This document shows positions 10,703 to 24,822 of a stretch of DNA of 24,822 bases, piece after piece (within the stretch, counting starts at the first letter, position 1; the number at the start of each line of letters is the position of its first letter). The translations under genes and the position numbers were made by a program. This stretch comes from an uncultured Collinsella sp. (GTDB lineage Bacteria > Actinomycetota > Coriobacteriia > Coriobacteriales > Coriobacteriaceae): contig CALGZY010000059.1 of NCBI GenBank assembly GCA_937934355.1, positions 1 through 24,822 of the forward strand. The letters are read 5' to 3'. The notes beneath the pieces are model-generated. The model was given only the letters and a program-made list of their open reading frames with translations. It had not been told where the DNA came from and made no database searches.

Positions 10703-10764
10703 ATCAAAGTCCTAACGGATCGAAAGTTACAAGGCACAAGAGATCGGCACCAGATACGGGAAAC

Positions 10765-10789
10765 GCCCGCGAGCATACAACCCGCGGGC
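10765..10789. other. Hairpin in the scrA-scrB spacer
   Basis: GCCCGCG (10765-10771) pairs with CGCGGGC (10783-10789) around an 11-base loop. It lacks a real T-run (GTTTCCC on the minus strand), so it is more likely a processing or mRNA-stability structure, or a leaky terminator that lowers scrB relative to scrA. Confidence 0.4.
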
Positions 10790-10809
10790 ATCCCCTCAAT
10801 CAAAAGCTC

Positions 10810-12210
10810 TTAGGCCTGCTCGGAAGCCTTGGGCTCGTCCTTGTACAGGACAAACGAGACAGCAAAGGAAACCAGCGCGGCGACCGCAAACATGATCGCG
10901 TACTGCACGGGCTGGGCCAGGCACAGCAGGATACCGAAGATACCGGTAACGCCCGTGCCGGAGGCGGCCAGCGAAGTGAGCGCGCAGACAAGGGCACCGC
11001 AACCGCCGCCGATGCAGCCGGCGATGAAGGGCTTAAAGAAGCGCAGGTTCACACCAAAGATGGCAGGCTCGGTAATGCCCATGAAGGCGGACAGGGCCGA
11101 AGGAAGCGCCAGACCCTTGATCTTGGCATCGCGGGTCTTAAATGCAACGGCGAGCGCGGCACCACCCTGGGCGATGTTGGCGGCACTGGCGATGGGCAGC
11201 CAGTAAGTCACGCCGTACTGGGCGAGCTGGCCCAGGTCGATGGCGGTGTACATCTGGTGGATACCGGTAACGACCGTGGGAGCATAGAACAGGCCGACGA
11301 TAAAGGAACCGATGCCGAAGGGCAGGGTGAGCAGGGCCCGGATCAGACCGAGAATGGCGTTCTCAGCCCAGACAAAGATGGGGCCGACGGCAACGAGAGT
11401 CACGAGCACGGTCACGAACACCGAGACGAGCGGGGTCACAAAGAGGTCGAACATCTCGGGGACAACCTTGTGGAGGCGCTTCTCCAAGAAGGCGAGGATG
11501 GCGCAGGCGATAACGATGGGGATCACGTGGCCCTGATAACCGACCCACTCAAAGCTGTACACACCGGGAATGACGTTGACCATGGTCTGCACGCCCTCGG
11601 AGGCAACCGTGTAGGCGCTCTGCAACGAGGAGTTGATGAACGCACCACCGACGACGGCGCCCAGATACGGGTTGGCTCCAAAGGCCTTAGCGGCGGAGTA
11701 ACCGATCAGGATCTGCAGGATGCCAAAGGACGTTCCCGAGACCAGGTCGGCAATCTTGTAGATAAAGTTATTGGTGTCGAGCGCGATAAAGCCGTTGGAG
11801 GCCATAAAGTTGAGGGCACTCATAATGCCCAGCAGCAGGCCCGAAGCCACGATGGCGGGGATGATGGGGACAAAGACGTCGCCGAGCACCTTAATGGCAC
11901 GCATAAAGATGTTCTGCTGCTGCGCCGCGGCCTCCTTGACCTCGGCCTTGGTGGCAGCCTCGACGCCGCTGAGCGCAATGAACTCGTCGTAGACCTTGTT
12001 GACGGTGCCGGTGCCAAAAATAATCTGGAGCTGGCCTTGGGCCTCAAAGACGCCCTTGGCGCCGTCAATATTCTCGAGGGCCTCCTTGTCAACCTTCGCG
12101 TTATCGGCAATCACCAGGCGCAGACGCGTGGCGCAATGCGCGGCAGAGACGACGTTGTCGGCGCCACCGATGTTGTCGAGCACCTCTTGGGCTGATTTGC
12201 GGTAGTCCAT
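10810..12210 (-). CDS. scrA: PTS sucrose permease, IIBC component
   Basis: This membrane permease imports and phosphorylates its sugar. The 466-residue protein begins with a IIB domain (about 1-85) whose phosphorylated Cys26 sits in SAAHCATRLRLVI, followed by a glucose/sucrose-superfamily IIC domain with about ten membrane segments and conserved TGIHQMY and GITEPAIFGVN. No IIA domain is fused, so phosphate must come from a IIA protein encoded elsewhere. Sucrose specificity is inferred from scrB next door; trehalose or beta-glucoside permeases look similar. The ATG at 12210 is chosen over one at 12243 because MDYRKSAQEVLD is the usual IIB start and GGAGGAAAGGGA lies just upstream. Two LacI-type operators sit 57-96 bases before the start. 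Confidence 0.9.
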   Translation of the reverse strand: MDYRKSAQEVLDNIGGADNVVSAAHCATRLRLVIADNAKVDKEALENIDGAKGVFEAQGQLQIIFGTGTVNKVYDEFIALSGVEAATKAEVKEAAAQQQNIFMRAIKVLGDVFVPIIPAIVASGLLLGIMSALNFMASNGFIALDTNNFIYKIADLVSGTSFGILQILIGYSAAKAFGANPYLGAVVGGAFINSSLQSAYTVASEGVQTMVNVIPGVYSFEWVGYQGHVIPIVIACAILAFLEKRLHKVVPEMFDLFVTPLVSVFVTVLVTLVAVGPIFVWAENAILGLIRALLTLPFGIGSFIVGLFYAPTVVTGIHQMYTAIDLGQLAQYGVTYWLPIASAANIAQGGAALAVAFKTRDAKIKGLALPSALSAFMGITEPAIFGVNLRFFKPFIAGCIGGGCGALVCALTSLAASGTGVTGIFGILLCLAQPVQYAIMFAVAALVSFAVSFVLYKDEPKASEQA

Positions 12211-12266
12211 GACTTCCCTTTCCTCCAACGGGCGCATGTGCACCCGACCATCTTTGACACTTACAC

Positions 12267-12280
12267 TGTAATCGTTTTCA
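12267..12280. promoter_or_regulatory. LacI-family operator, site 1 (cre-like)
   Basis: The minus strand reads TGAAAACGATTACA, which fits the CcpA cre consensus TGWAANCGNTNWCA at every defined position. An identical copy lies 26 bases upstream (12293-12306). It is 57 bases before the scrA start codon and next to a LacI-family gene, so it is the probable binding site of that regulator. Confidence 0.8.
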
Positions 12281-12292
12281 GTTTCATATGCC

Positions 12293-12306
12293 TGTAATCG
12301 TTTTCA
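12293..12306. promoter_or_regulatory. LacI-family operator, site 2 (cre-like)
   Basis: A second exact copy of the 14-base TGAAAACGATTACA (minus strand). The 26-base centre-to-centre distance is about two and a half helical turns, so two dimers would sit on nearly opposite faces. The scrA promoter must lie near or between the two sites; I could not pick convincing -35 and -10 boxes. Confidence 0.8.
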
Positions 12307-12312
12307 CAGAAG

Positions 12313-12344
12313 GGTGAACGGTAGGAAAATGCCGGTGAATGGTA
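12313..12344. repeat. Direct repeat pair GGTGAAnGGTA spaced 21 bases
   Basis: GGTGAACGGTA (12313-12323) and GGTGAATGGTA (12334-12344) are 21 bases apart, exactly two helical turns, between the operators and the end of the regulator gene. The layout would suit a second DNA-binding protein acting upstream of the scrA promoter; no protein can be named. Confidence 0.45.
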
Positions 12345-12394
12345 GTTTTACGGCAAAAACAGGGGCCTCAAAGGCAGGCAGACATGCCCAAAGC

Positions 12395-13375
12395 CTAGAC
12401 ATTCATAAGTTGATGGCCGAGTTTGAGCGTCTTGAGACCGCTCTCCCCCTCCACGCCATCGAGCGTGTTGAGCAACATATTGGTCGCCTCGACGCCACTG
12501 GTCAGGTAGCCATAATGCACGGTGGGAATGCCGCCCGTCAGCGCGCGCAAAAACGCGTTGTCGCCAAAACCGCTCACGCGGTGTATACCCTCGCCCATGC
12601 CGCGAACCTCATCGATGGCACGCAGCGCGCCCGCCGCCATGGTGTCGGTCGCGCACGCGATAAACGAAACGTCGGGGTCGACGGACAGCAGTTCACGCGC
12701 CGCACCATAGCCCGAGTCGAGCGTAAACGAGCCCAGGCGAATCAAGGCGGCATCGAGCGGGTTGCCCGCGGCGCGCAAGCCGGCCTCAAAACCGCGACGG
12801 CGGTCATAACCGGCCGCGCGGTCCTCTTCGGTAACTCCAATGTAGGCGATCTTGCCGTCCACGCGGCCCGCAAGCGCATGGCCCAGCTCAAAGGCAGCCT
12901 CGTAATCGTCGTGATAGACGCACGCCGCGCCCTCGACGTTTTGGCCGATCAGCACAATGGGCACACGGCACGATTCAATCGCCCGACGGTGCTCGTCGGT
13001 GATCATGGTTGCCACGAGCACGATGCCATCGACCGGGTGATTTTGGAATAGATCAAGATATTCGAGCTCGCGACCGGCCGCGTTGTCGGTATTGGCAAGC
13101 AGCATCTGGTACCCGCGGCGACTGAGCACCTGGCCAATGCCGGCGGTAATGCGGCTCACGGATTCCGAGTTAATCTTGGGCACGATGACGCCGATGAGCT
13201 TGGTGGAGCCGGTGCGCAGCGCACGAGCCTGGCTGGATCGCACGTATCCTGTCAGCTCAATCGCCTTCTTAATGCGCTCGGCCTTGTCCGTCGATATGTA
13301 GCCACCGTTGAGGTAGCGCGAGACGGCGGCGCTCGAAACGCCGGCCAGCTCGGCCACATCCTTCATCTTTACCAC
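12395..13375 (-). CDS. LacI-family transcriptional regulator, probably of the sucrose genes
   Basis: The 326-residue product has the LacI helix-turn-helix near its start (KDVAELAGVSSAAVSRYLNG), the hinge helix (SQARALRTGSTKLIGVIVP) and a periplasmic-binding-protein-like sugar-sensing domain (about 60-320, with FIACATDTMAAGALRAI). It should repress scrA-scrB until a sugar ligand is bound, by analogy with ScrR-type repressors; the two identical operators before scrA support this. Start choice: GTG at 13375 has AGGGG five to six bases upstream and puts the DNA-binding domain at the N-terminus as usual. ATG at 13366 is too far from that site, and ATG at 13408 would add an atypical 11-residue tail. 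It is about 185 bases upstream of scrA on the same strand. Confidence 0.88.
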   Translation of the reverse strand: MVKMKDVAELAGVSSAAVSRYLNGGYISTDKAERIKKAIELTGYVRSSQARALRTGSTKLIGVIVPKINSESVSRITAGIGQVLSRRGYQMLLANTDNAAGRELEYLDLFQNHPVDGIVLVATMITDEHRRAIESCRVPIVLIGQNVEGAACVYHDDYEAAFELGHALAGRVDGKIAYIGVTEEDRAAGYDRRRGFEAGLRAAGNPLDAALIRLGSFTLDSGYGAARELLSVDPDVSFIACATDTMAAGALRAIDEVRGMGEGIHRVSGFGDNAFLRALTGGIPTVHYGYLTSGVEATNMLLNTLDGVEGESGLKTLKLGHQLMNV

Positions 13376-13469
13376 GAGCACCCCTGACAACGAATTCACA
13401 AGCACCATGATAGCTGCCTTGCCAGCAAATTGAGTAAATAGAATTCCTGGTCGAGCAAACGTCAGCGAG

Positions 13470-13567
13470 CGGGCAGCTGCCGTGGCGAGGTGCCGCGAAA
13501 GAGGAGCGAAGCGTACTTTATGTACGCGAGCGACGGTTTGAGCGGCAGATCGCCCGGCAGATGCCCG
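13470..13567. repeat. Structured intergenic repeat, copy B
   Basis: The 45-base core (13497-13541) matches copy A at all but three positions, and the differences are in the hairpin loop and one flanking base. The outer arms 13470-13496 and 13542-13567 pair as CGGGCA, CTGCCG, GGCGA and TGCCGC blocks broken by one mismatch, one bulge and a two-by-two purine loop in the same place as in copy A. Arm sequences are unrelated to copy A beyond the innermost pairs, where T-A in A becomes C-G here. It lies in the spacer after the Pel operon, upstream of the LacI-type gene. Confidence 0.75.
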
Positions 13568-13675
13568 CGCAGCGTCGACCGGTCCGGCGTTCGGCAGAAC
13601 GCCGGAACATAAGAGCCCGGCAGATGCCCGCGCCGCGTCGAGCGGTCCGGCGTTCGTTAGAACGCCGGAACATAG
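13553..13675. repeat. Tandem duplication of a 63-base unit, each with a perfect hairpin, after the Pel operon
   Basis: Unit 1 (13553-13615) and unit 2 (13616 to about 13675) are nearly identical. Each contains TCCGGCGTTC and GAACGCCGGA separated by four bases: a perfect ten-base-pair hairpin at 13583-13606 (loop GGCA) and at 13646-13669 (loop GTTA). The second hairpin starts six bases after the DUF4956 stop codon on the minus strand. No T-run follows either hairpin, so they may stabilise the 3' end of the operon mRNA or act as paired weak terminators. The first unit also supplies part of the right arm of structured repeat B. Confidence 0.75.
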
Positions 13676-14341
13676 TTATCCATGATACTCGCCGTTGTAC
13701 TGGATGAGGGTCAGGTCCTCAACGCCATCGAGCGTGCGAATCGCGTCGGCATAGGGCATGTCCACGCCGTCCGAGAATACCTCCACGGCCATCTCGACTT
13801 TGTCGCCGTGCATCGTCTTGGACTTAACGGTGAACTTGGTACGCCCAAACGCGCGCACGATATCGTCGCCGGTGGTCTGGCCCGTGTAGTGAATGACCAT
13901 CATGTACACGCGCGCCTTGTCCTGATGGCTCGCAAACCCGGCGATCATCACCACGATGACCACCGCCGTGAGCGCCACGAGCGCGTACATGCCGGCGCCT
14001 GCCGTAATGCCCGTGGTAATGGACCAAAACAAATACAGCAGGTCGAGCGGGTCCTTGACCGCCGTACGATAGCGGACGATAGACAGAGCACCGACCATAC
14101 CGAGTGAGATGACCACGTTCGTCGAGATCGCGAGCGTGACCATGCAGGTGAGCACGCACATGCCCACAAGCGTCACGGCAAAGCTACGCGAATACACCAC
14201 GCCGGTAAAAAAGCGCTTGTACACGTAATAGATCAGGATGCCCATGGCGAGCGCCACAAGCAGCGAAAGGCCAATCTTGGCAGGGTCGACCTGGCCAAAC
14301 GCCTCCAAAACGGAGTTCTTAAAAAAGTCCCTGGTGCTCAT
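13676..14341 (-). CDS. DUF4956 membrane protein, last gene of the Pel operon
   Basis: The 221-residue integral membrane protein has about four hydrophobic segments (roughly 22-40, 52-72, 76-90 and 110-136) and the family's central motif GMVGALSIVRYRTAVKDP (81-98). The C-terminal 75 residues are soluble, with an ACT/ferredoxin-like pattern (KVEMAVEVFSDGVDMP). The function of the family is not established. In many bacteria DUF4956 genes sit beside VTC-domain and CotH-like genes, as they do here, which suggests a joint membrane complex (inference). The start ATG at 14341 follows the VTC gene's stop by three bases, with GAGGGG about 11 bases upstream. Confidence 0.87.
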   Translation of the reverse strand: MSTRDFFKNSVLEAFGQVDPAKIGLSLLVALAMGILIYYVYKRFFTGVVYSRSFAVTLVGMCVLTCMVTLAISTNVVISLGMVGALSIVRYRTAVKDPLDLLYLFWSITTGITAGAGMYALVALTAVVIVVMIAGFASHQDKARVYMMVIHYTGQTTGDDIVRAFGRTKFTVKSKTMHGDKVEMAVEVFSDGVDMPYADAIRTLDGVEDLTLIQYNGEYHG

Positions 14342-14344
14342 GGT

Positions 14345-15136
14345 CTAAATATCCCCTCGGTTCTCAAAATCCGATTCCCAGTAATTAAATCCGCGCAGGT
14401 AGGCGGTCTTTTCGTAACACAGGCAGTACTTGGAGACCGCCGTAAGCTCGGCCGCGCCCGGCGGCACCAAATCACGCACCAGCTGCGGGCAAAACTCCGT
14501 AAACTTGACCTCCATCACCAGCTTGCCGGGCTCCAGGACCGGCAGCACGGGCAGCGTCGCGTCAAAGATATCGAAGCTTCCCACCGCGGCACGCACGTTC
14601 ATGTCAAACGTAACGCGCACGGTGCCCTCGTCCATCACCCACGGCTCACGCTCGTAGTCCACGATGGTCCGCGGGCGCATCATGTTGCAGATGCACTCGA
14701 TGTAGAACTCGCGACAGAGCGGATAGGGGCTCCTCAGCAAAAAGCCGTAGCCGCCAGCCAGAATCTGCTCAAACTCGCCACGTGTGAGCGGCGCGTCCTC
14801 CTTATAGATCCAGCTACCGTACTTCTTTTTGCGCTCGAGCTTAATCGCCTTGTCGCTGCCGTTATAGATGCGAACGCGATACTTTTTGCGCATGAGAATG
14901 CCGGCGTCTTTTTCCTCGTAGGCCGAGTTGCAGTAGTCGTCAAAGTACAGGCTGCGAATGGTGTAACCGCCCGCCCGCGCATGCTTGTCCAGCTTAAACA
15001 CCGGCGCCATGCGACAGGCAAGCGCAACGTGCTCGCCCTCGTTAATGAGATATTTGAGCTCGTGGCGGTAACGCTCCTGCGTGGCACGCACGGGCGGGGC
15101 CGCCAAGCGCTCAAGCAGCGCGCTAGCCCTCCTCAT
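14345..15136 (-). CDS. VTC-domain protein (polyphosphate polymerase family)
   Basis: The 263-residue soluble protein has the VTC/triphosphate-tunnel fold: ERYRHELKYLI (21-31, with E26 and K28), RSLYFDDYCN (61-70), KYRVRIYN (85-92, R87 and R89), IKLERKKK (98-105), RPRTIVDYEREPW (154-166), VRVTFD (173-178), LVMEVKF (206-212) and SKY (235-237). The alternating basic and acidic residues of the tunnel are present, so catalysis is plausible. In yeast Vtc4 this domain makes polyphosphate from ATP; bacterial versions are poorly characterised. It overlaps the CotH-like gene by 14 bases and is followed by DUF4956. The ATG at 15136 has GGAGG six bases upstream. Whether it makes polyphosphate or modifies something in the exopolysaccharide system cannot be told. 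Confidence 0.88.
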   Translation of the reverse strand: MRRASALLERLAAPPVRATQERYRHELKYLINEGEHVALACRMAPVFKLDKHARAGGYTIRSLYFDDYCNSAYEEKDAGILMRKKYRVRIYNGSDKAIKLERKKKYGSWIYKEDAPLTRGEFEQILAGGYGFLLRSPYPLCREFYIECICNMMRPRTIVDYEREPWVMDEGTVRVTFDMNVRAAVGSFDIFDATLPVLPVLEPGKLVMEVKFTEFCPQLVRDLVPPGAAELTAVSKYCLCYEKTAYLRGFNYWESDFENRGDI

Positions 15137-16892
15137 ACGTATCCTCCACGACCTTACCGCCGTCTTGCACGTAAAAACACTTCATGCCGTACTGTTTGCC
15201 ATCGTCGGTAACGTAATAGTCAAACGCATCTTGCGTAAAGCCGTCGGAGTTGGTGGCACGCACGCGCACAAAATACTGGCCGGCATCGGGCGCATCGCAC
15301 GTTACCTCCGGCAGCAGCACGTCCTCGGCCTTAAAGACCACGTCGCTTATGGCATAGTCGCGCGCAAGCTCCACGGTATAGCGAATATCGCGCGCCTTAA
15401 AGTCGTAGGACGCATCCCAGTTGATGCGCAGCTTACCGTTATCGATCTGTGGCACGCCAATGTAGAACGGCATGGGCTTTTTATAGCTCTCGCGAAAGCT
15501 CTTATAGTTCTCCTCGATCTCAGAAGGAATCGCCGCGGTGATCTGCTCGTATTGGTCCTTGGTGACAGGCAGATGGTCGATATCGGGCGAAGCAAAGACC
15601 AGCGATTCAGTAACCTCGCGGTAGTGCTTGATCATCTTGGTCAGGCGAGTCTCGGTCAAATACGAGCGCAAGTCCTTGACGGCACGGTCGAGTTCGCTGC
15701 GGAACGACTTGCTGCGCAACGCACGGTTAAACAGCACATTGCCCCAGTAGTTGCTCACGCCGCGCTCCCAGCTCGCGTAGTCCGAAAACCCGGTAAGAGA
15801 AAGCTCCAGCTTACGCAGCATGCCGTCGTTATCCCAATCCAAAAAGTACCAGGTATTTGAGTTGAGAGGGCTGTACAGATAGCAGTTACGGTTCTGCGTA
15901 TCGCAGTTGCCCGTCAGGATCTGAAACGCCAGCCAATAGACCAGATTCTCGGTATCAAAGTAGGTATCGAGCACATCATCGATCTTTTGCGATTCATCGT
16001 TGAGCGCATCGAGCATCTCGATGAGCTTGGTGTGGTCCGAATCGCCCTTAATCTCGAGCATGCCCTCAAAGTTTGCCTGGTTGTAGTCGGGATCATCGGC
16101 AAGCTTAATGGTGTCCTCGTAGCGATGGAAATCAAAGCTGTTCACCTTGTACAGGTGCCCGCTCTTATCCAGGCCATGTGCCTTAAGCGCCGTCTTGTTG
16201 AGCTGCTCCACCTGCGTAAACAGGCCGTAGTCCTCAAAGGTGTCGTTGGACTTTTCGGTCTGGTCGCACACCCACAGATGCACAAACTGCGTACGCAGGC
16301 CCATCATCTGGGGAATGCCACGGATCAGATCGTAGGCCATCTTGTTGCGAAAACGCATACCCTCGCCCATGTGCTTGTTGAGCGCAATCGCGCGCTGTTG
16401 GCGCCAGGTACCCTTGCCCTTTTTGAGCTCCACCTTGTAATTCTTCTGCGAGTTCATGCTTGATGTCTGACCGCGCACCTGCACGGTAGCATTGGGCGCT
16501 TCCTCGCCATAGCCAACCTCGCCGGCCACCGGGCCGTCTTCGTCGCCCGGCTGCAGCAGGCCCATAACCTGATAGCGCGTCACGCCCATGTCGGCATAGT
16601 CATACACCGAGTACGTGTTGATCTCGGCCCAGCTGTGGTCGGTGTTCTCGGAGCTGTTGCCGCGTGAGACCGTCAGGTACATGGTCACAATACCCGAGTC
16701 ATCGTAGACCTCGTAGAGCTCGTCCTTGTCGCGCAGGTGCTTGGACTGGTCGGAGGCCTCGGTCTTTTTAATCTTGTCCTGCTTTTTGACCTTTTTGGTC
16801 GAGGAGTCTTCCTGCACCGAGCAGCCCGAAAGCAACAGCGCACCGGCAGCCGCCTCAAACAGGCGACGGCGAGACATCATCCTATCGGTCAT
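15123..16892 (-). CDS. CotH-kinase-family lipoprotein in the Pel operon
   Basis: The 589-residue protein starts with a twin-arginine-like SRRRLFE and a lipobox LSGC (Cys24), so it is probably exported and anchored to the outer face of the membrane. The body (about 60-440) is CotH-like: VRGQTSSMNSQKNYKVEL, FRNKMAYDLI, GNCDTQNRNCYLY with Asp331 and WYFLDWDNDG with Asp352, acidic residues where CotH kinases have their catalytic aspartates. A C-terminal Fn3-like sandwich follows (about 470-570). CotH of Bacillus phosphorylates spore-coat proteins; no spore genes are seen here, so the substrate may be another surface protein or the polymer. It overlaps pelG by 11 bases; ATG 16892 has GGGGAGG five bases upstream. 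Confidence 0.88.
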   Translation of the reverse strand: MTDRMMSRRRLFEAAAGALLLSGCSVQEDSSTKKVKKQDKIKKTEASDQSKHLRDKDELYEVYDDSGIVTMYLTVSRGNSSENTDHSWAEINTYSVYDYADMGVTRYQVMGLLQPGDEDGPVAGEVGYGEEAPNATVQVRGQTSSMNSQKNYKVELKKGKGTWRQQRAIALNKHMGEGMRFRNKMAYDLIRGIPQMMGLRTQFVHLWVCDQTEKSNDTFEDYGLFTQVEQLNKTALKAHGLDKSGHLYKVNSFDFHRYEDTIKLADDPDYNQANFEGMLEIKGDSDHTKLIEMLDALNDESQKIDDVLDTYFDTENLVYWLAFQILTGNCDTQNRNCYLYSPLNSNTWYFLDWDNDGMLRKLELSLTGFSDYASWERGVSNYWGNVLFNRALRSKSFRSELDRAVKDLRSYLTETRLTKMIKHYREVTESLVFASPDIDHLPVTKDQYEQITAAIPSEIEENYKSFRESYKKPMPFYIGVPQIDNGKLRINWDASYDFKARDIRYTVELARDYAISDVVFKAEDVLLPEVTCDAPDAGQYFVRVRATNSDGFTQDAFDYYVTDDGKQYGMKCFYVQDGGKVVEDTYEEG

Positions 16893-18426
16893 CAGAACCT
16901 CCCCAATGCTTGCGATACACGTGAACTACTGCGCGCTCAAACGCGCCATATGGCTCACCCTTATGGCGACCTTCCTCATAGCGCTGCTCGGCACGGTCGA
17001 GCAAGCGGCCCAGCTGTGTAAAGCGACCCGTTTTGTCGGTCGCCACAATGGGCTGCTGGCTCAGGATACGATACGGCAAGTTGGCGGTATAGGTATCGAG
17101 CCGCAGAAGCGCCACGATAAAAAACACCGCTGCACCCAACAAAAAGCCAAATCCGTAAAACTGCTGCGGCAAAAGCAACGACACGGCAGTCGCCAGCCCG
17201 GCCACACCGGCAAACAGCCCCGATGCCATCACGGCCCCCTTGTAGTCGGTAAAGTACAGCAAGATGAGCATCACCGTATTGCCCACGGCATACAGGCCAT
17301 AGCCCACGCACAGCGTGCGAAAATACCCGTGCATAAGGTTGTTAAAGCCCAACGGTAAGGCCGACAGCACCGTGGTCTCGAGCGAGATGACCGCCGCGGT
17401 CACAAACAACTGTTTGAGCGCGCAAAAGCGCAGTTCGCTGTTGAGCGTGGAGAGCATCCCCTCCTCTGCCACCACGATGTCGCCCACCACGCCGCCGTCG
17501 TTGAACAGACTGTAGTAGTCGCGGTAGCGTGGATAGAAGTTGACCTCGACCGAAACCACAAAGTTGACGGTCGTGACCAGGATCGTCAAAAACGCGATCA
17601 GCGCCGGCACATCGTAGTAGGGCGCACCATAAAACAAGCCCTTGACCTGAACGCCAATGGGACCAGCCCAAATAATCACCAGGTGCGCAAAGAGTCCCAG
17701 ATTGGTTAACAGGCCCGTGAGCGCCAGCGGCATAAACTGATCGAGCCACTGCAAAAAGGGCCAGGGACTGCGGTCACTCTGCGGAAAATACCGGTACAGC
17801 AGTACCACGTCCCAGACGAGCATGACGCCGTAGCCCAGGGCAATTGACGCCAACAGGCCCTCGACCGGCGGCAGTCCCAGCGCCAGCGCGGCCAGGGCGC
17901 ACAGGCACGTCACGCCAATGGCGGCCGCAAAGCTGCACAGGATGCCGCGGTAATCCTTGATGGCCGTGAGGTAACTCATGCCGTTCCAGTTGACGATCAT
18001 AATGTTGAACAGCCACAGGCACAGCAGCCCCTGCAGCAGCGTAGCGCCCGAGAACAGCAAAAAGACGCCGTAGAGCACCGTGCCCGCAACGAGCATGATG
18101 GCGTTGGAGCCCCAAAACGAAGGCAGGATCTCATCCTCGCGCTCGGCAAACAACATATCAGCCAAAAAGCGCGTGACCGGCATGGAGAAAAAACTCGTGA
18201 GCAAAAGCGAGGCCAGCAGTGTGTAGGTCACCATGCACACCAGCAGATCCTGGTTGGCACGGCCCACACCCCACAGACCGCACAGTACCAAGATACCCAC
18301 CTGGAGCAGCACGCCCAGCAGCATCGGGCCCGTGCACACAATGCCGGCGTAGCCGTAAGCGCGCATCGTGGCAAACAGGCCCTTGCGCCTAAACAGGCGC
18401 TTGAGCTCAAAACCAATTCCGGCCAC
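16882..18426 (-). CDS. pelG: Pel polysaccharide membrane transporter PelG
   Basis: PelG is a polytopic inner-membrane protein of the MOP (flippase-like) superfamily that, with PelD and PelE, forms the synthase complex and probably carries the growing polymer across the membrane. The 514-residue protein opens with the family signature MAGIGFELKRLFRRKGLF and has about 12 hydrophobic segments, conserved VSVEVNFYPRYRDYYSLFNDGG and a charged cytoplasmic tail. Length is slightly above the roughly 450-460 residues of Gram-negative PelG because of that tail (about 445-514). The start is GTG at 18426, three bases after the pelF stop, with GGGGGAG about seven bases upstream; it overlaps the next gene by 11 bases. 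Confidence 0.93.
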   Translation of the reverse strand: MAGIGFELKRLFRRKGLFATMRAYGYAGIVCTGPMLLGVLLQVGILVLCGLWGVGRANQDLLVCMVTYTLLASLLLTSFFSMPVTRFLADMLFAEREDEILPSFWGSNAIMLVAGTVLYGVFLLFSGATLLQGLLCLWLFNIMIVNWNGMSYLTAIKDYRGILCSFAAAIGVTCLCALAALALGLPPVEGLLASIALGYGVMLVWDVVLLYRYFPQSDRSPWPFLQWLDQFMPLALTGLLTNLGLFAHLVIIWAGPIGVQVKGLFYGAPYYDVPALIAFLTILVTTVNFVVSVEVNFYPRYRDYYSLFNDGGVVGDIVVAEEGMLSTLNSELRFCALKQLFVTAAVISLETTVLSALPLGFNNLMHGYFRTLCVGYGLYAVGNTVMLILLYFTDYKGAVMASGLFAGVAGLATAVSLLLPQQFYGFGFLLGAAVFFIVALLRLDTYTANLPYRILSQQPIVATDKTGRFTQLGRLLDRAEQRYEEGRHKGEPYGAFERAVVHVYRKHWGGSDDR

Positions 18427-18429
18427 CGG

Positions 18430-19857
18430 CTACTCCCCCTCTCTGGGCAGGTTAAACGCACACGCCGTCTCGTCGTACAGTGCGCGATAGTTGGTGAGCA
18501 TCTGCTCGTGCAAAAAGTACGTGGCAACGCGGCGCTGGCCGCGCTCCCCCATCTCAATGCGACGGGCGCGACTTGTGCACATGCGTTCCATGGCATCGGC
18601 CAAGCCCTTGCGATACATAGGCGGCGTCACAAAACCCGCCACGCCAAAGTCGTCGCCCGGGGCGCCTTCGAGTAGCTCGCGGCAGCAGCCCACCTCGGTC
18701 GTCACGCAGGGACGGCGCGCTGCAAGCGACTCCAGCACGCTGAGCGGCTGGCCCTCGGAGATGCTCGTCAAAATGGTAAAGTCGAGCTTTTCCATGTACT
18801 CGACCACGTTGACGCGACCGGTAAAGATCAGGTCGCGCACGCCAAGGGTATCGACCAGCGCGTGGCACTCGGCGCCGTACTCTTCGTCGTCCACGCCGCC
18901 CATGATGTGCAGGCGCACCTTAGGCAGGCGCTCGTGCAGCTCAAAGAAGGCATAGATCATGGTCTTGACGTCCTTGATGGGCGCCAAGCGCACCACTGCG
19001 CCAATATCCACCCAGCCATCATCGGGCTTTAAGGGAATATCCTTAAAGCGATCGAACTGGATGCCGTTGGGGATAACCAGGCATTTGTCCGCATCACAGC
19101 CCATATCAATCTGCGTCTTGCGGGCGTTATGGAACAAACTCGTCACGCGGAAGGCGCGGCGGTAGATCTCCTCCGAAAGCAGGTAGAAAAAGCGAATCCA
19201 GCGGTCCTTAAATGACGGCACCACCCAGTCGGCGCGAATGATCTCTTCCTCGCGCTCGCGGGTATAGATGCCGTGCTCGGTGAGCAGCACCGGCGCATGG
19301 TGAACGCTTGAGCCCAGACAGGCGAGCAGGCCGCCGTAGCCGGTCGAGATAGCGTGGTACACATCGGCAACCGGCACCTCGCTGCCCAGCAGGTAGAGCA
19401 CCGGCAACAGCATAGAGCGCATGGTGTGGAATGCGTCGGCAAAGGGCGTGTAGGGGTACTCGGCAAGGCACACGTCGCGGAAGATGTCCATAAACGTTCG
19501 GCTCTGCAAAAACGAGAGCGGATGAACGCGACGGCGCTGAAAGATATCGAACAGCACGTCCCAGTCCGGATTGGAGAGCGACACCAGACGGCGTAGCGCC
19601 TCGCGCTCGCGGTCGTTAAAACTGGCTTCGTGCTGCTCGCCCGAAAGCCGCAGGGCATCGTCCAGGAACACCTCGTGCACCTCGACCACGTTGCCGGGCA
19701 GCTCGTAGACAAACTTGCCACGGTCGGCAGCATGCGCGCCGATCACCCACAGCACAAACTCGTGCTCGGGCATAGCCGTAATGTAGCCGTGCATCCAGGT
19801 AGACACGCCGCCGTGCACATAGGGGTAGCAACCCTCGAGTACCAAGCAGATTCTCAT
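18430..19857 (-). CDS. pelF: Pel glycosyltransferase PelF (GT4)
   Basis: PelF is the cytoplasmic GT4 glycosyltransferase that polymerises the Pel chain from UDP-sugars. The 475-residue protein has the family N-terminus LVLEGCYPYVHGGVSTWMHG (glycine loop), a Rossmann-like N domain to about residue 265 and a C domain with VIPNGIQFDRF, VVRLAPIKDVKTM and the retaining-GT motif ISEGQPLSVLESLAARRPC, whose two glutamates are eight residues apart as expected. CRELLEG follows. The start ATG at 19857 overlaps the pelA stop as ATGA, with AAGGAGGG upstream. Gene order D-E-A-F-G is that of known Gram-positive pel operons. Confidence 0.95.
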   Translation of the reverse strand: MRICLVLEGCYPYVHGGVSTWMHGYITAMPEHEFVLWVIGAHAADRGKFVYELPGNVVEVHEVFLDDALRLSGEQHEASFNDREREALRRLVSLSNPDWDVLFDIFQRRRVHPLSFLQSRTFMDIFRDVCLAEYPYTPFADAFHTMRSMLLPVLYLLGSEVPVADVYHAISTGYGGLLACLGSSVHHAPVLLTEHGIYTREREEEIIRADWVVPSFKDRWIRFFYLLSEEIYRRAFRVTSLFHNARKTQIDMGCDADKCLVIPNGIQFDRFKDIPLKPDDGWVDIGAVVRLAPIKDVKTMIYAFFELHERLPKVRLHIMGGVDDEEYGAECHALVDTLGVRDLIFTGRVNVVEYMEKLDFTILTSISEGQPLSVLESLAARRPCVTTEVGCCRELLEGAPGDDFGVAGFVTPPMYRKGLADAMERMCTSRARRIEMGERGQRRVATYFLHEQMLTNYRALYDETACAFNLPREGE

Positions 19858-21734
19858 TTGTCGCTACCCTCCTTGCGCGCAATGGTCACCGTCTTGTCCG
19901 TGGCTTTGACCAGGTACAGGTCGCCTGTCAGATGCGTAATCTCGCCACCCGTCACCGCACCCGGCTCGCCATTATTGGTACGGAACATGAGCCAAGCCTC
20001 GTCGTGGAAATTGCCCAGGCTGAGCGTCCAGGCATCCGCACTGGTATCCACACTCACCGTAACCGACGAAAAGCGCTGAATGGCGCCCGAGCAATCCGAG
20101 CCGGTCTGGCGGCGCAGGTCGGGCGCAGACTTGGTAAGCCAGTCCAGGTAGTCGGTCAGGCCGCCCTTGTAGACTTCCCAGCCCTCCTTGGCGCCGCGAT
20201 CGGGATCGAGCAGGTCGTCCGGGTGCATAAAGTGCGTACTCACGTAGTGCATGTTGAGCTCGGACACGGCAGCCAGGCGCATATAGGAATCGTCGACCAT
20301 GCCGCCCGAAACAATACGCGGCTGCTCCACAATACCATCGCTCGCCACGCCAAACTCCTGCACGTACGGCAAGTCGGTACCGTCCTCAAAGTACGTACTG
20401 GCAATAGTCTTAATGCGCGGAACGTCGGTGCCGATAAGCTGGCGCGCGCGGGCCGAAAGGATATTCGACGGTGGCACGTAGACCGAGCCGTGCGCGTTGG
20501 GCAGCACCTCGTCCTGGAAGGCTATAAGCTCGTTGAGCGAAGCGACGAGCGTTTCCTTGTTTTTCCACGTCTTGTAGACGTACAACGTACCATAGTCGGT
20601 GTCCCAGAGCGCAAGCGGCTGATGGTTGTAGCCGTGAAAGCCCAGCTCTCCGCCCATCTGCAGCAGCATGCCGCCAAAGTAGCGGAACTGCGTGGTATCG
20701 GCCTGGCGCGCGGGCTCGGTCTGGTTGACCGCGTCCTCGTAGTTTTCGATCATCACGCCGGTATAGCGAATGCCGTATTTTTGCGCGAGCTTTTGCAGAT
20801 CGGGCCACCAGACCTTGGCATAAAAATCGGCGACGGAAAGCCCGTAGTCGCGCTTGATGTAGGTGCCGTCGCCCGAGGGCACAGGGCTGGGAAAGTCGTC
20901 CAAATAGAACACGGCGCTGTTGATGACCGGATAGGCCGTGGCTTCACCCAGCAAGCTTATGGCCGAAGCATAGAACCCACGCATGACCTTGTCGTAGATG
21001 CCAATGTTGCACACCACGGTGTGACCACTGCCGCAATCGTTAGACCAAATGAGCGGCGTGCCCGCGTCACCGGTCTTTGCCCAGACGTGCGCCGTTTCGC
21101 GCAATGAAACCGAGAGCGAAGAATCGAAGGGATCCGAGAACTCGTAGCGCTCTCCCCCGCCCAGCATAAAGTCCTCACTCGGCACAATGCTTTCGGCTTT
21201 TACATAGTCATATCCGGCCGATTCAATGCCAAGCTTGGAGGCAATCACTTGCAGATAGCTCGAGTTATCCGGCGGCATGACGAGCATAAGAGAACCGCCA
21301 GCACTCACCCAACCCATAATGTCGCTCAGGTGCGTACCGAGCCCATCGAGCGACGGCATGAGCAAAATCACGCGATCGAAGGAGGTCAGCGAGGGAATGG
21401 CATCCGCACCATCCAGAGCAAGGTCCACGTCGCGGTGCGCGATCTTCATGTCCAGCAAAATCTGGTCGAACTGTTCCTTTACGTCCTCGACGCCATCTTG
21501 ATCCGAGTCGGTAATGACCAGGCACGTGGGCTTTTGGCCAAAGATTGCCGAGGAGGCCGGCACCGCATCGTTGGCGGCAAGCATCCCCAGCTTATGCTGG
21601 CCCGCACTGTACTGCACGCCGGAACGCTCCACCAGCAGCACGGCGGCCATGGCAGTAAAGACCGCCCACACCACGAGGAGCCCCATCCAACGAAAGCGAC
21701 CTGCACGGTCGCGGATATGTTGCGCCACGCTCAT
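19854..21734 (-). CDS. pelA: PelA-like polysaccharide deacetylase (DUF2194), membrane anchored
   Basis: The 626-residue protein has one N-terminal membrane segment (about 15-35) and an extracytoplasmic body. A flavodoxin-like region (about 60-250) precedes a carbohydrate-esterase-4-like deacetylase with YLDDFPSPVP (paired Asp), LGFHGYNHQPL (HxxxH-type metal ligands), VYVPPSNIL and a late His in HYVSTHFMHPDD; a beta-rich C-terminal tail follows. It should remove acetyl groups from the nascent polymer, giving the cationic Pel. Unlike Pseudomonas PelA there is no glycoside-hydrolase domain, matching the deacetylase-only PelA of Bacillus cereus. The start ATG at 21734 overlaps the pelE stop as ATGA with AGGAGG just upstream; a longer start at 21758 is less likely. 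Confidence 0.88.
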   Translation of the reverse strand: MSVAQHIRDRAGRFRWMGLLVVWAVFTAMAAVLLVERSGVQYSAGQHKLGMLAANDAVPASSAIFGQKPTCLVITDSDQDGVEDVKEQFDQILLDMKIAHRDVDLALDGADAIPSLTSFDRVILLMPSLDGLGTHLSDIMGWVSAGGSLMLVMPPDNSSYLQVIASKLGIESAGYDYVKAESIVPSEDFMLGGGERYEFSDPFDSSLSVSLRETAHVWAKTGDAGTPLIWSNDCGSGHTVVCNIGIYDKVMRGFYASAISLLGEATAYPVINSAVFYLDDFPSPVPSGDGTYIKRDYGLSVADFYAKVWWPDLQKLAQKYGIRYTGVMIENYEDAVNQTEPARQADTTQFRYFGGMLLQMGGELGFHGYNHQPLALWDTDYGTLYVYKTWKNKETLVASLNELIAFQDEVLPNAHGSVYVPPSNILSARARQLIGTDVPRIKTIASTYFEDGTDLPYVQEFGVASDGIVEQPRIVSGGMVDDSYMRLAAVSELNMHYVSTHFMHPDDLLDPDRGAKEGWEVYKGGLTDYLDWLTKSAPDLRRQTGSDCSGAIQRFSSVTVSVDTSADAWTLSLGNFHDEAWLMFRTNNGEPGAVTGGEITHLTGDLYLVKATDKTVTIARKEGSDK

Positions 21735-22636
21735 CTGGCCTCCTCCCCGTCGCGCCAAAACGCCAACTGTTCGCGGTTGTCGGCGCTCAAATACACATGT
21801 TGCTTGTCAATCGCATCGATCACACGGTGGACCTCGTCACCATCGCGGCGCATCACGGCCAGGCGCAGGCAAAGCATCCAAACCTCCTGCTCCTCGGGCA
21901 CGTCGAGCACCAGCTGGTCGGTCACGGCCTGCGCCTCGTCGATCTGTCCGACATCGGCCAGCGCCGTCGCGTATCGAATGCGCAGCTCAAAAGTGTCTTC
22001 GCGCTCGCAGCGACGCGCAAGCAGGCGCGCGTACTGTTGGCGCTGAATCTGAGCCACGCGCCCCTCGGCCAAGCCCGAGCCTAAGTATTCACCAAGAAAA
22101 TCACAGTATTCGATGAGGTTTTGCGCGCTCGGGTCCGTCTTAAAGGCGCGCTCCAGCTGCTGCAGTTTAAGGTCGGACTCCTTGGAGATCTGCGCCACCG
22201 CCGTCGCGGCATAGTGCGCCACCTCAACGTCGTCGTTAAGCTTAGCCGCCTGCAGCTGCGCCAGGTACGCGTCGGGCTCCTCGGTGAGCATGGAGAGCAT
22301 TAGGCGGCGCCGGTATGCCGGGTCATTGACGATGAGCGCCTCCTCGAGCGGCACTACGCCTGCATCGTCCTCACCACTCGATACCGACATACTACGATGC
22401 AGGTCGTCGTTGAAGCGCAGCGACTCCAGCGCAGACTCTTTCAGCCCCTCGCCAAACATCGCGCCGCGGACCGATAGCAGAACCACCAGCATCGGACCCC
22501 ACAGCGGCACCAGCACTATCACAGCCAGCATGTGCCCGCGCACTGGCAGCAGGGCCAGCTTCATAAGCGTCTTCAGCATCAGGCAAACCAGCGCATGAAT
22601 CAGCAGCAAGACGGCAGCAGCGACAAGCGAGATCAA
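21731..22636 (-). CDS. pelE: PelE-like membrane protein with TPR repeats
   Basis: The 301-residue protein has two N-terminal membrane helices (about 3-25 and 36-56), a short linker and then alpha-helical repeats of TPR type (about 105-290; for example ALADVGQIDEAQAV). That is the PelE architecture. In Pseudomonas, PelE links PelD and PelG in the inner-membrane synthase complex; the same role is inferred here. Sequence similarity in this family is low, so the call rests on domain order and position between pelD and pelA. The start is a TTG at 22636 that overlaps the pelD stop (TTGA), with GAGGGGGG seven bases upstream, a strong case for translational coupling. Confidence 0.82.
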   Translation of the reverse strand: MISLVAAAVLLLIHALVCLMLKTLMKLALLPVRGHMLAVIVLVPLWGPMLVVLLSVRGAMFGEGLKESALESLRFNDDLHRSMSVSSGEDDAGVVPLEEALIVNDPAYRRRLMLSMLTEEPDAYLAQLQAAKLNDDVEVAHYAATAVAQISKESDLKLQQLERAFKTDPSAQNLIEYCDFLGEYLGSGLAEGRVAQIQRQQYARLLARRCEREDTFELRIRYATALADVGQIDEAQAVTDQLVLDVPEEQEVWMLCLRLAVMRRDGDEVHRVIDAIDKQHVYLSADNREQLAFWRDGEEAR

Positions 22637-24771
22637 GCGGCACCCCCCTCACCGTCACCGGTGTAAGAGATGTGCTGCAGCAACGCCACGATGTCCTCGC
22701 CATCGACGGGCTCCACCGTAATCTGCTTTACGCTCAGGCGCTCGCGGATAATGGGAAGATCGCACGCCTTTGCCTGGCGCATAAGCAGGTAGAGCACGTT
22801 GCCGTCGACCAAGCCCGCCGCGTCGCTCTCGCGGATTGCTGACCCAATTGCGCCCACCAGCTCGTCGACAGGCTCCATGCCCGGTACCACGCGAAGGAGC
22901 AAAAAACTCCCCATCTTGCTATCTGCCAGAGCCTGCTCCGCCGCGAGCTCTTGGCCAAAGGCAGCCTGCTTGAGCACGCAAGTTCCGTCAACGCAGCGTT
23001 TATCCTGCGCCACCGCCTCATAGTCAAAGGCACGGCTCAGCGCGCTTTCGACCAGCCCGCACAAGATGCGGAACAGGTTTTGATAATAGAGGGTCATTTG
23101 GTTTTCGGCCGCACTACGCACAAAGATCAACACGGCGGGTGCCCCGTCGCGCTCGATCGTGTATCCAAACATGGGAAGCCCCGGCGTCAGCTCGCGGTTC
23201 ACCCACAGGTTCGAACGACCCCCGTCGCCCAAAAGAGGTGCAAGCTGCTCAAGCGTGAGCGAGCGTGCGGCATCTTCGGCAATCGCGGGACTTGCCGCCA
23301 CCAGGCGTGCAAATGCCCCGCCCGAAACATGGTAGATCGCCACCGAATCGTTCTCGAGGATCTCGCCCAGAAGCTCGCAGCACTTGCGATAGATGTCGCG
23401 CGGGTTGAGCACATCGAGCTCCTGCGTCACGGCAAAGATCTTGCCAAAGCTGTCGTGGCGACCCACGATCTGGCGCCTGTACGCGCGCTTGTCCTCGATC
23501 GCGTCGTGGTAGAGCTGCGTAAGGAACGTATTGCGGTTGCGCACGAGATCGTTTTGGTCGCGCTCCGCCCTAATGGCTTCGCTGTTGCGCAGCTGCACAT
23601 AGCCGCACACGGCACCCACCACAAAGTACGCAATAAACGGTAGCCAGTTGGACGGCTCGTAGAACAGACCCTGGAAGGTATAGCCGTACTGAGTAAAGTA
23701 GCTGGCTGCCAAACCCACCGACGCCAGCAGCGCCGCAACCAGGCCAAAGTCCAAGCCATACAGCGTGCCGATCAGCACCACGTAGAGCAGGCGATAATCG
23801 AGCACGTTGAGCTGGACCGATTGTGAGAACAGATGCTCCAGTACCTCGAACAGAACCCAGGCAACGCCCGTCTCCAGGCATTTAATAGGCAGCGCGCGCA
23901 TCTGGATGCGGTCGATGGCGGCACGCAGCGGGTTGATCTTTTTGATGCGTCCAGCGCCCCAGCGAGCTTGAATGGTCGAGAGATCGCGCAGCAAGTCATA
24001 GCGCTGAAACCAGCCATAGCGCACGCGAGCGACGTCGCTGGCGGGCAGGGCGTAGCCGGCAGAATCGCCATAGGCAACGGCAAGGCCGGGGAACAGCGCC
24101 TTGAGGGCCTCGCCCACCTCACCCGCCGTGTGATGGAAGGTATCGGCAACGTCGAGCGTCTCAAAGTTACCATCCCAGCTATCGAAGATGCGGCGCACCA
24201 GCACCGCAAGCTCCTCGGCACACAGCAGGGGAAACGCCGCATCCTGCGCGCCCTGCAGAGCGACCGATCCGGTTGAGCACGCGTCGAACAGCGGCACCAA
24301 AAACGGGTCCTCCAGTGCGGCAGACGCGGTATACAGGAACGGCACGCGCAGGATCTTGGTCTGAACGCCCTCGCGAGCAGCGTAGTACCGGCACAGGTCG
24401 TTGGCTGCGTGCGCGATAATGCCCTTGCCCGTTCGCCCCGCGGCATCGGCGGCACCCTCGGCACCCGCGGGCCCCGCTACATACAGCAGTTGGACCCGGC
24501 GACCCGCGCACGCACGAAAGACCGAGCGCAACAGCTCGATATCGCCCACGATATCGGTATGCGGGGTAAGGTAATTAGACAGGTAGACCACGCGTTCGAA
24601 TTCGTAGGCCTGATCCAGGTGTTGCAGAAGCTCTTTCCACGAGGCATGGGGCGATGACTCATCGCGGCGTGCTTCCGCGGCAGCGACGACCTGCACATGG
24701 TCCCCGGGGAACGCCTTGGCACAAAAGTCATCGTCAACATATGCGGTGTTGCCAACAACCAGCACCTCCAT
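22633..24771 (-). CDS. pelD: PelD-like c-di-GMP receptor with an N-terminal SDR-like domain
   Basis: PelD is the membrane scaffold that switches on Pel synthesis when it binds c-di-GMP. This 712-residue protein has an extended-SDR (NAD-epimerase-like) domain (about 1-245), about four membrane segments (297-395), a coiled linker, a GAF domain (about 440-580) and a degenerate GGDEF domain (about 600-705). The inhibitory-site motif RxxD is intact as R647-E-S-D650, while the GGDEF position reads DGNVL, so it can plausibly bind but not make c-di-GMP. The SDR part has lost the GxxGxxG loop (VVGNTAYVD) and the YxxxK pair, so it is probably not an active epimerase. The ATG at 24771 has AGGGGAG nine bases upstream; the in-frame ATG at 24798 lacks one. 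Any earlier operon genes lie outside the window. Confidence 0.9.
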   Translation of the reverse strand: MEVLVVGNTAYVDDDFCAKAFPGDHVQVVAAAEARRDESSPHASWKELLQHLDQAYEFERVVYLSNYLTPHTDIVGDIELLRSVFRACAGRRVQLLYVAGPAGAEGAADAAGRTGKGIIAHAANDLCRYYAAREGVQTKILRVPFLYTASAALEDPFLVPLFDACSTGSVALQGAQDAAFPLLCAEELAVLVRRIFDSWDGNFETLDVADTFHHTAGEVGEALKALFPGLAVAYGDSAGYALPASDVARVRYGWFQRYDLLRDLSTIQARWGAGRIKKINPLRAAIDRIQMRALPIKCLETGVAWVLFEVLEHLFSQSVQLNVLDYRLLYVVLIGTLYGLDFGLVAALLASVGLAASYFTQYGYTFQGLFYEPSNWLPFIAYFVVGAVCGYVQLRNSEAIRAERDQNDLVRNRNTFLTQLYHDAIEDKRAYRRQIVGRHDSFGKIFAVTQELDVLNPRDIYRKCCELLGEILENDSVAIYHVSGGAFARLVAASPAIAEDAARSLTLEQLAPLLGDGGRSNLWVNRELTPGLPMFGYTIERDGAPAVLIFVRSAAENQMTLYYQNLFRILCGLVESALSRAFDYEAVAQDKRCVDGTCVLKQAAFGQELAAEQALADSKMGSFLLLRVVPGMEPVDELVGAIGSAIRESDAAGLVDGNVLYLLMRQAKACDLPIIRERLSVKQITVEPVDGEDIVALLQHISYTGDGEGGAA

Positions 24772-24822
24772 GGCGCACCCCTCCCCTAAAATCCACATTT
24801 GTCATAGTCAAACATGCGTATT

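Follow-up and report, generated by a model that had tools for sequence, protein, structure and literature searches.

The analysed DNA, referred to as the window, is a stretch of 24,822 nucleotides from an uncultured Collinsella species (contig CALGZY010000059.1 of assembly GCA_937934355.1), and its subject is a Pel polysaccharide operon of eight minus-strand genes that runs uninterrupted from position 24798, or from the ATG at 24771, down to 13676 in the order pelD-pelE-pelA-pelF-pelG-cotH-VTC-DUF4956 (Table 1). The ATG at 24771 is the pelD start displayed by relatives L065 and L069, and the eight-gene order is retained in the close relatives L065, L067, L068 and L069. Five junctions are overlaps of 4, 4 (using the pelA ATG), 4, 11 and 14 bases, and two are 3-base gaps. 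The initial annotation described pelD-E-A-F-G running unbroken into genes for a CotH lipoprotein, a VTC protein and a DUF4956 membrane protein, which open reading frame coordinates and Pfam confirm; its eight-gene count is correct and its account of the junctions (overlaps of 4 to 14 bases or 3-base gaps) matches the computed coordinates. DUF4956 is followed by a 267-base gap carrying a doubled hairpin element and then by a LacI-type gene on the same strand. A scan for internal promoters and terminators gave counts close to those of shuffled sequences (6 versus 4.3; 15 versus 12.8), and for this reason no internal promoters or ends are claimed.

Table 1. Features of the window, with their positions and the basis of each call.
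Feature	Positions	Strand	Basis and remarks
pelD	22633..24771	-	Receptor-like protein with membrane and cytosolic parts; open reading frame also open from 24798; sub-threshold DUF4118; homologous to PelD of other Pel loci; RxxD kept
pelE	21731..22636	-	Membrane/TPR protein; sub-threshold TPR_19; position and homologues in Pel loci
pelA (deacetylase-type, DUF2194)	19854..21734	-	PF09960, E 1.5e-172; open reading frame also open from TTG 21758
pelF, GT4 polymerase	18430..19857	-	DUF3492 and GT4 (Pfam); NCBIfam NF038011 PelF, 321.5 bits (cut-off 100)
pelG, exporter	16882..18426	-	PF16933, E 7.9e-138
cotH, CotH-family kinase	15123..16892	-	PF08757, E 5.9e-66; lipobox-like LLSGC at N-terminus; Asp331 and Asp354 kept
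VTC-domain (polyphosphate-polymerase-like) protein	14345..15136	-	PF09359, E 5.1e-30
DUF4956, membrane helices and C-terminal ACT-like domain	13676..14341	-	PF16316, E 8.5e-12; AF2 models; fold match of C-terminal part
60-base element with strong hairpin, 2 copies	13552..13674		Directly 3' of DUF4956
Sucrose-type cassette (LacI-type regulator, PTS transporter, invertase-like gene)	9164-13408		Between pel operon and next gene; Pfam for LacI-type and PTS
Invertase-like gene	9164-10702		Reading of the sequence

PelA, PelF, PelG, CotH, VTC and DUF4956 were called by Pfam and NCBIfam; the assignment of PelD and PelE, whose Pfam matches (DUF4118 and TPR) lie below the cut-offs, is based on position and on homologues in Pel loci. 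The PelF and PelG homologues are adjacent (NF038011 and PF16933), and the DUF2194 domain of PelA spans residues 35-616, with no second domain above the Pfam cut-off. The RxxD motif of PelD is present in all 19 rows that cover the region (23 rows aligned), and GGDEF domains are found in each of six Pel-bearing relatives. Judged from these sequences, PelD is a plausible receptor for cyclic di-GMP (c-di-GMP), and to that degree the proposed Gram-positive Pel operon with a c-di-GMP receptor is supported.

Published work on other species describes Gram-positive Pel as the c-di-GMP-gated synthesis and export of a polymer rich in N-acetylgalactosamine (GalNAc) that is deacetylated outside the cell. 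Gram-positive pelDEADAFG loci of streptococci and clostridia are reported to carry, contiguous with them, a second accessory group, made up of genes for CotH, a polyphosphate polymerase, DUF4956 and DUF4832 (Whitfield 2020, PMC7112168), with a cyclase/phosphodiesterase in place of DUF4832 in bifidobacteria. The window has the same core order, an identical set of three tail genes, arranged alike as far as that description goes, and, as in those loci, a PelA made of the deacetylase domain alone; it differs in lacking the fourth gene, whether DUF4832 or the bifidobacterial cyclase/phosphodiesterase, and in its Collinsella-like host. The paper also places a degenerate epimerase domain at the N-terminus of PelD in loci with the accessory block; that detection relied on fold prediction, and Pfam finds no such domain in the window's 721-residue PelD. 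The main text of PMC7112168 names neither Collinsella nor Coriobacteria, and a literature search for a pel operon in Collinsella returned no paper. The operon is an ordinary Gram-positive Pel operon with the published accessory block. The suggestion that it forms a distinct matrix system is not supported: the block had already been described from other Gram-positive bacteria in 2020 and was examined through gene deletions in 2025, and many genomes carry relatives of the three genes away from Pel.

The deletions were made in Streptococcus intermedius (PMC12345266), whose cluster SIR_1591-1594 encodes, like the window and likewise 3' of pelG, a CotH protein with a C-terminal FN3-type part, a polyphosphate-polymerase domain and an ACT-domain membrane protein. 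The window lacks the SIR_1591 hydrolase of that cluster, and its PelD retains RxxD, whereas the streptococcal PelD is without GGDEF. Each extra gene was deleted, and every mutant is reported to have still produced Pel and aggregated. Loss of the CotH gene (SIR_1594) lowered aggregation in sputum medium by more than half and gave less Pel, loss of the four-helix ACT-domain gene SIR_1592 lowered it by more than half and gave more Pel, and for the polymerase gene SIR_1593 no effect is reported. We infer that SIR_1592 is a DUF4956 gene, a name that PMC12345266 does not use.

A fundamental question is whether the three tail genes belong to Pel as such. A profile scan of genome contigs with a 50-row DUF4956 alignment gave 552 confirmed loci, the best 80 of which were mapped by six-frame profile searches. 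VTC lies directly upstream of DUF4956 in 78 of these 80. PelG is found in 21, and CotH precedes VTC in 19 of them; the remaining two lack CotH (L092) or both CotH and VTC (L089). Among the 59 other loci, DUF4956 is followed by CotH in 33 and by a Cthe_2159 beta-helix protein in 14, VTC-DUF4956 stands alone in 6 (some on short contigs), CotH lies upstream with PelG undetected in 2, and L146 is without VTC. Other pel-type genes occur near L095, L096 and L154. The module is thus found without Pel in 56 of the best 80 loci, three more being ambiguous, and CotH and Cthe_2159 are found together in none of the 80. PMC12345266 states that the CotH, polymerase and membrane-protein arrangement was not found outside Pel. 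This statement needs qualification: the same three families do co-occur there with their order permuted, and the permutation may be the reason the arrangement was missed.

Individual loci show further variation. The Cthe_2159 beta-helix protein occupies the place downstream of VTC-DUF4956 held elsewhere by CotH in L102, L107, L108 and 11 further loci, and in L085 (10001-20669) the CotH-VTC-DUF4956 block precedes pelD rather than following pelG, with its internal order unchanged. Natural VTC-DUF4956 fusions were considered as evidence of contact and set aside, as the two proteins with both Pfam domains (P0030 and P0046) are without the VTC end and look like deletion products. Two-component neighbours were also discarded: a response regulator and kinase of the two main clusters accompany 41 of the 73 stand-alone rows but none of the 25 Pel rows, a contrast that is unfair because pel genes occupy most of the upstream side of the 8 kb searched in Pel loci.

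The ancestry of the module was traced from 118 loci and the window, which gave 108 rows once broken, short or missing VTC or DUF4956 rows had been dropped. L059 and L108 represent one contig taken from two sources, as do L070 and L078. On the joined VTC and DUF4956 tree, 18 changes suffice for the five context labels, compared with a mean of 55 after shuffling. A 98-row tree, which omits 10 rows labelled none or CotH-upstream-without-Pel, places the 25 Pel rows on one side of a single branch (98 in the Shimodaira-Hasegawa-like approximate likelihood ratio test, SH-aLRT), so that one change separates them from the 73 rows with CotH downstream or Cthe_2159. The separate CotH tree likewise has one branch (SH-aLRT 100) that divides 27 Pel-type rows, namely those of Pel loci together with L083, L093 and L154 (CotH upstream, PelG undetected), from 39 others. 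In the stand-alone part of the tree, CotH and Cthe_2159 alternate. The simplest reading of the two trees is that the module apparently joined Pel once and was inherited with it thereafter, and that the exported partner would have been exchanged freely outside Pel. Since one change separates Pel from non-Pel rows in both trees, the trio is shown, at the level of protein sequence, to be a single branch within a portable module made up of a VTC-DUF4956 pair and a third, exported protein.

The same association can be counted within defined groups of genomes. Across 149 Coriobacteriia genomes, PelG is found above the family cut-offs in 6, DUF4956 in 36, VTC in 35 and CotH in 21. All six PelG genomes, which belong to one genus, also carry DUF4956 (background 36 of 149; hypergeometric p 1.4e-4), those DUF4956 genes lying outside the pel operon in G095. 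Of 38 coriobacterial loci, 37 have VTC and DUF4956 next to each other, with interrupted or partial copies in L058, L061, L066 and L070. CotH adjoins the pair in 5 Pel loci and likewise in 11 that have no PelG, two of which (in G022 and G095) have one gene interrupted. VTC is carried somewhere in 19 of the 21 CotH genomes (Fisher p 1.4e-12), and in three of these 19 (G071, G131 and G137) CotH is a long protein elsewhere. The G095 pel operon (L073) has CotH and VTC without DUF4956, and a second locus of that genome (L057) has VTC, DUF4956 and an interrupted CotH. PPK1 is present in 30 of the 35 VTC genomes; therefore VTC is not merely a PPK1 substitute, and the idea that it is the sole polyphosphate maker was rejected for most. 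The picture changes among 346 Actinomycetota, where 5 genomes have PelG above the cut-off, one of these being a fragment; only 1 of the 5 also has DUF4956, against 38 of 346 overall. The link of the tail genes to Pel is therefore bound to certain clades. The test of co-occurrence above chance has a mixed outcome across the two groups of genomes, and the tail genes do travel with pel within one clade.

Against the recruitment of a portable module by Pel weigh this Actinomycetota count, the leaning of the best 80 of the 552 loci towards Pel-like copies, the nature of the trees as quick searches without bootstrap (with a midpoint root for drawing only) and a long-branch warning on the CotH tree. 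We hold the ancestry described here with high confidence.

The module also lies beside a polysaccharide synthase of another kind. In the coriobacterial locus L056 (3105-13579), the gene order begins with VTC, DUF4956 and CotH and continues with a 754-residue protein that has no match in Pfam, a HEAT-repeat protein and a family-2 glycosyltransferase (GT2) synthase. The synthase scores 139.6 bits to PgaC/IcaA, below the cut-off of 422.3, and GGDEF and response-regulator/HD genes are divergent from the locus. Parts of the arrangement are shared by L057, L060, L062 and L063, and the region is a candidate polysaccharide locus. VTC, CotH, HEAT-repeat and family-2 glycosyltransferase genes also stand together in NELoc-2 of Clostridium perfringens, a likeness judged from published tables and protein sizes (PMC2879425; PMC11677781); the NELoc-2 gene list comprises polyphosphate polymerase, CotH, HEAT, glycosyltransferase, sigma and anti-sigma genes (PMC11677781), and no Pel genes appear in it. 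An RsgI-like gene lies 5' of VTC in L071, and L072, L074 and L075 contain genes belonging to that cluster.

What might the three proteins do? A single-sequence search of VTC against solved structures gave no match; a 24-row profile matches Vtc4 (E 2.1e-21), and 15 of 16 tunnel positions show the same residue in all 108 rows. R87 and R89 correspond in the alignment to an arginine pair read as R264 and R266 of Vtc4, which, on this reading, are changed in a catalytically impaired mutant (PMC9911596). In the yeast VTC complex, synthesis and transit of the polymer through a channel with a lining of basic residues are coupled. The window resembles the eukaryotic complex in having a homologous tunnel domain with the arginine pair and a membrane part as its companion, and differs in that Pfam gives VTC alone, without SPX, and the membrane part is DUF4956 rather than Vtc1.

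DUF4956 carries two arginines, R90 and R92, that are invariant in 108 of 108 rows. Its C-terminal part matches an ACT-like fold in a fold search with AlphaFold 2 (AF2) models, and its profile has a single match among solved chains, an ACT domain (E 0.39); the ACT fold often serves ligand sensing. The membrane part gives weak matches to MgtC (PF02308) in five of five proteins, all below the cut-off (best E 0.0024, window 0.78).

CotH residues D331 and D354 align with structure 5jd9 and are kept in 99% and 100% of 75 domains. The CotH of the window is of the same family as the spore-coat kinase (5jd9; PMC7821199), and its two aligned aspartates, 23 residues apart, have the spacing of D228 and D251 of Bacillus subtilis; it differs as a predicted exported lipoprotein in a polysaccharide operon, the described CotH being a coat protein. 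A loose script found a lipobox-like motif or hydrophobic N-terminus in 75 of 81 CotH matches, at least four of the other six being short or start-less pieces.

The explanation we favour, while holding it evenly balanced between right and wrong, is that a phosphate-polymer synthase and exporter together with a surface phosphotransferase has been added to an ordinary Pel operon. VTC would polymerise phosphate from ATP at the inner membrane face, and DUF4956 would be its membrane partner, a guide or export path with an ACT-type sensor domain. The secreted CotH lipoprotein would be a surface phosphotransferase acting on a matrix protein or glycan, and its activity would tune a matrix that forms without CotH. 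In favour of this explanation are the near-constant pairing of VTC with DUF4956, the Vtc4 match with its kept tunnel residues, the invariant R90 and R92 of DUF4956 set beside the basic channel of yeast, the export signals of CotH, and the altered aggregation and Pel amount in S. intermedius after loss of CotH or the ACT-domain gene. How would such an enzyme obtain phosphate outside the cell? The ATP source in the spore coat is called unanswered in PMC7821199, and the most speculative step of our proposal is that CotH may draw phosphate from the exported polymer. That VTC-DUF4956 is a polymerase with export is a tenable suggestion that falls a little short of an even chance, and that CotH uses its polymer is unlikely; the earlier proposal that the tail genes modify, anchor or energise the Pel polymer is a guess.

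Several observations oppose the favoured explanation. The membrane helices of DUF4956 gave no convincing match to solved folds, including the yeast VTC channel, and no activity of a bacterial VTC-DUF4956 pair was found in print. In the pel operon of G001, the nearest relative compared, VTC is stopped by a stop codon (L066, 12509-13342), with CotH and DUF4956 open. Moreover, if CotH needed the VTC product, both deletions should look alike; those reported for S. intermedius differ, and the silent deletion of polymerase gene SIR_1593, when the CotH deletion has an effect, speaks against part of the proposal. The silent deletion and the interrupted VTC of G001 together are the strongest evidence against a simple chain from VTC to CotH.

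An alternative hypothesis is that CotH is a regulatory kinase and that it and the DUF4956 sensor tune Pel synthesis by protein phosphorylation, with no phosphate polymer and a marginal VTC; the CotH part of this was suggested in PMC7112168. It would account for the opposite shifts in Pel amount on deletion of CotH and the DUF4956-type gene, for the polymerase deletion without reported effect and for the ACT-like domain. However, VTC adjoins DUF4956 in 78 of the 80 best loci with its tunnel residues kept, also where Pel and CotH are absent, and the CotH proteins appear to be exported, away from the cytosolic synthase, and we regard this hypothesis as rather improbable. CotH might instead phosphorylate the Pel sugars themselves, using ATP or another donor, to give a zwitterionic polymer, with VTC-DUF4956 supplying or clearing phosphate. 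A predicted exported protein of kinase fold tied to polysaccharide loci (Pel and the GT2 synthase locus) would suit such a role, but the characterised CotH acts on coat proteins (PMC7821199) and phosphate on Pel is not described in the Pel literature cited, which makes it a distinctly unlikely explanation.

It may also be asked whether the three genes are passengers whose only tie to pel is a common promoter, their role lying in phosphate storage or in surface chemistry that has nothing to do with Pel. The many best loci with the module and without Pel fit this idea, as do the interrupted VTC of G001 and the fact that S. intermedius still makes Pel when any of the extra genes is deleted. Nevertheless, CotH overlaps the gene upstream of it by 11 bases and VTC does so by 14, each of the two trees sets the Pel-linked copies on a branch apart, the block accompanies pel in L085 as well, although it lies ahead of pelD there, and the S. 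intermedius deletions alter aggregation. We therefore consider a passenger role very unlikely. A phosphate-polymer synthase and exporter together with a surface phosphotransferase remains our preferred explanation.

Downstream of the operon, the hairpin of the doubled element (window 13552-13674) reads GTTCCGGCGTTC-NNN-GAACGCCGGAC. Allowing up to 2 mismatches, it occurs in 4 to 9 copies in five of six Pel-bearing Collinsella relatives and in 0 copies in G095, with 0 for the reversed control. Copies in the relatives often have matched changes on both arms, and one lies just 3' of DUF4956 in each of G001, G101 and G141. Rfam gave nothing above gathering scores, and judged from its sequence the element appears to be like a repetitive extragenic palindromic (REP) element or a terminator. 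The sucrose-type cassette, whose transporter is of the phosphotransferase system (PTS), is absent from this place in L065 and L069, in which the gene found beyond the cassette in the window follows DUF4956; the cassette is therefore outside the operon.

With the window, the known range of a Gram-positive Pel variant comes to include a Collinsella-like gut bacterium. The added value of the analysis lies in the origin and spread of the tail genes, the operon itself being an already published type. These genes are reframed as a widespread VTC-DUF4956 unit with a swappable exported partner, which also occurs beside a GT2 synthase, rather than as Pel parts as such. By analogy with the yeast complex, we hypothesize, tentatively and with considerable doubt, that VTC-DUF4956 could be a vectorial machine in which synthesis of a phosphate polymer from ATP is coupled to export. 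Beyond the cell boundary, where little ATP is available, it would provide an exchangeable surface partner with a polyanion or a donor of phosphate (CotH would use it, Cthe_2159 would bind it). The Pel lineage would have acquired the machine a single time, so that a cationic polysaccharide came to be combined with a phosphate polymer of negative charge or with a phosphorylated matrix. The unit is open to study in hosts that have no Pel, and two linked questions, what bacterial VTC domains produce and which phosphate donor exported CotH proteins use, become testable together.

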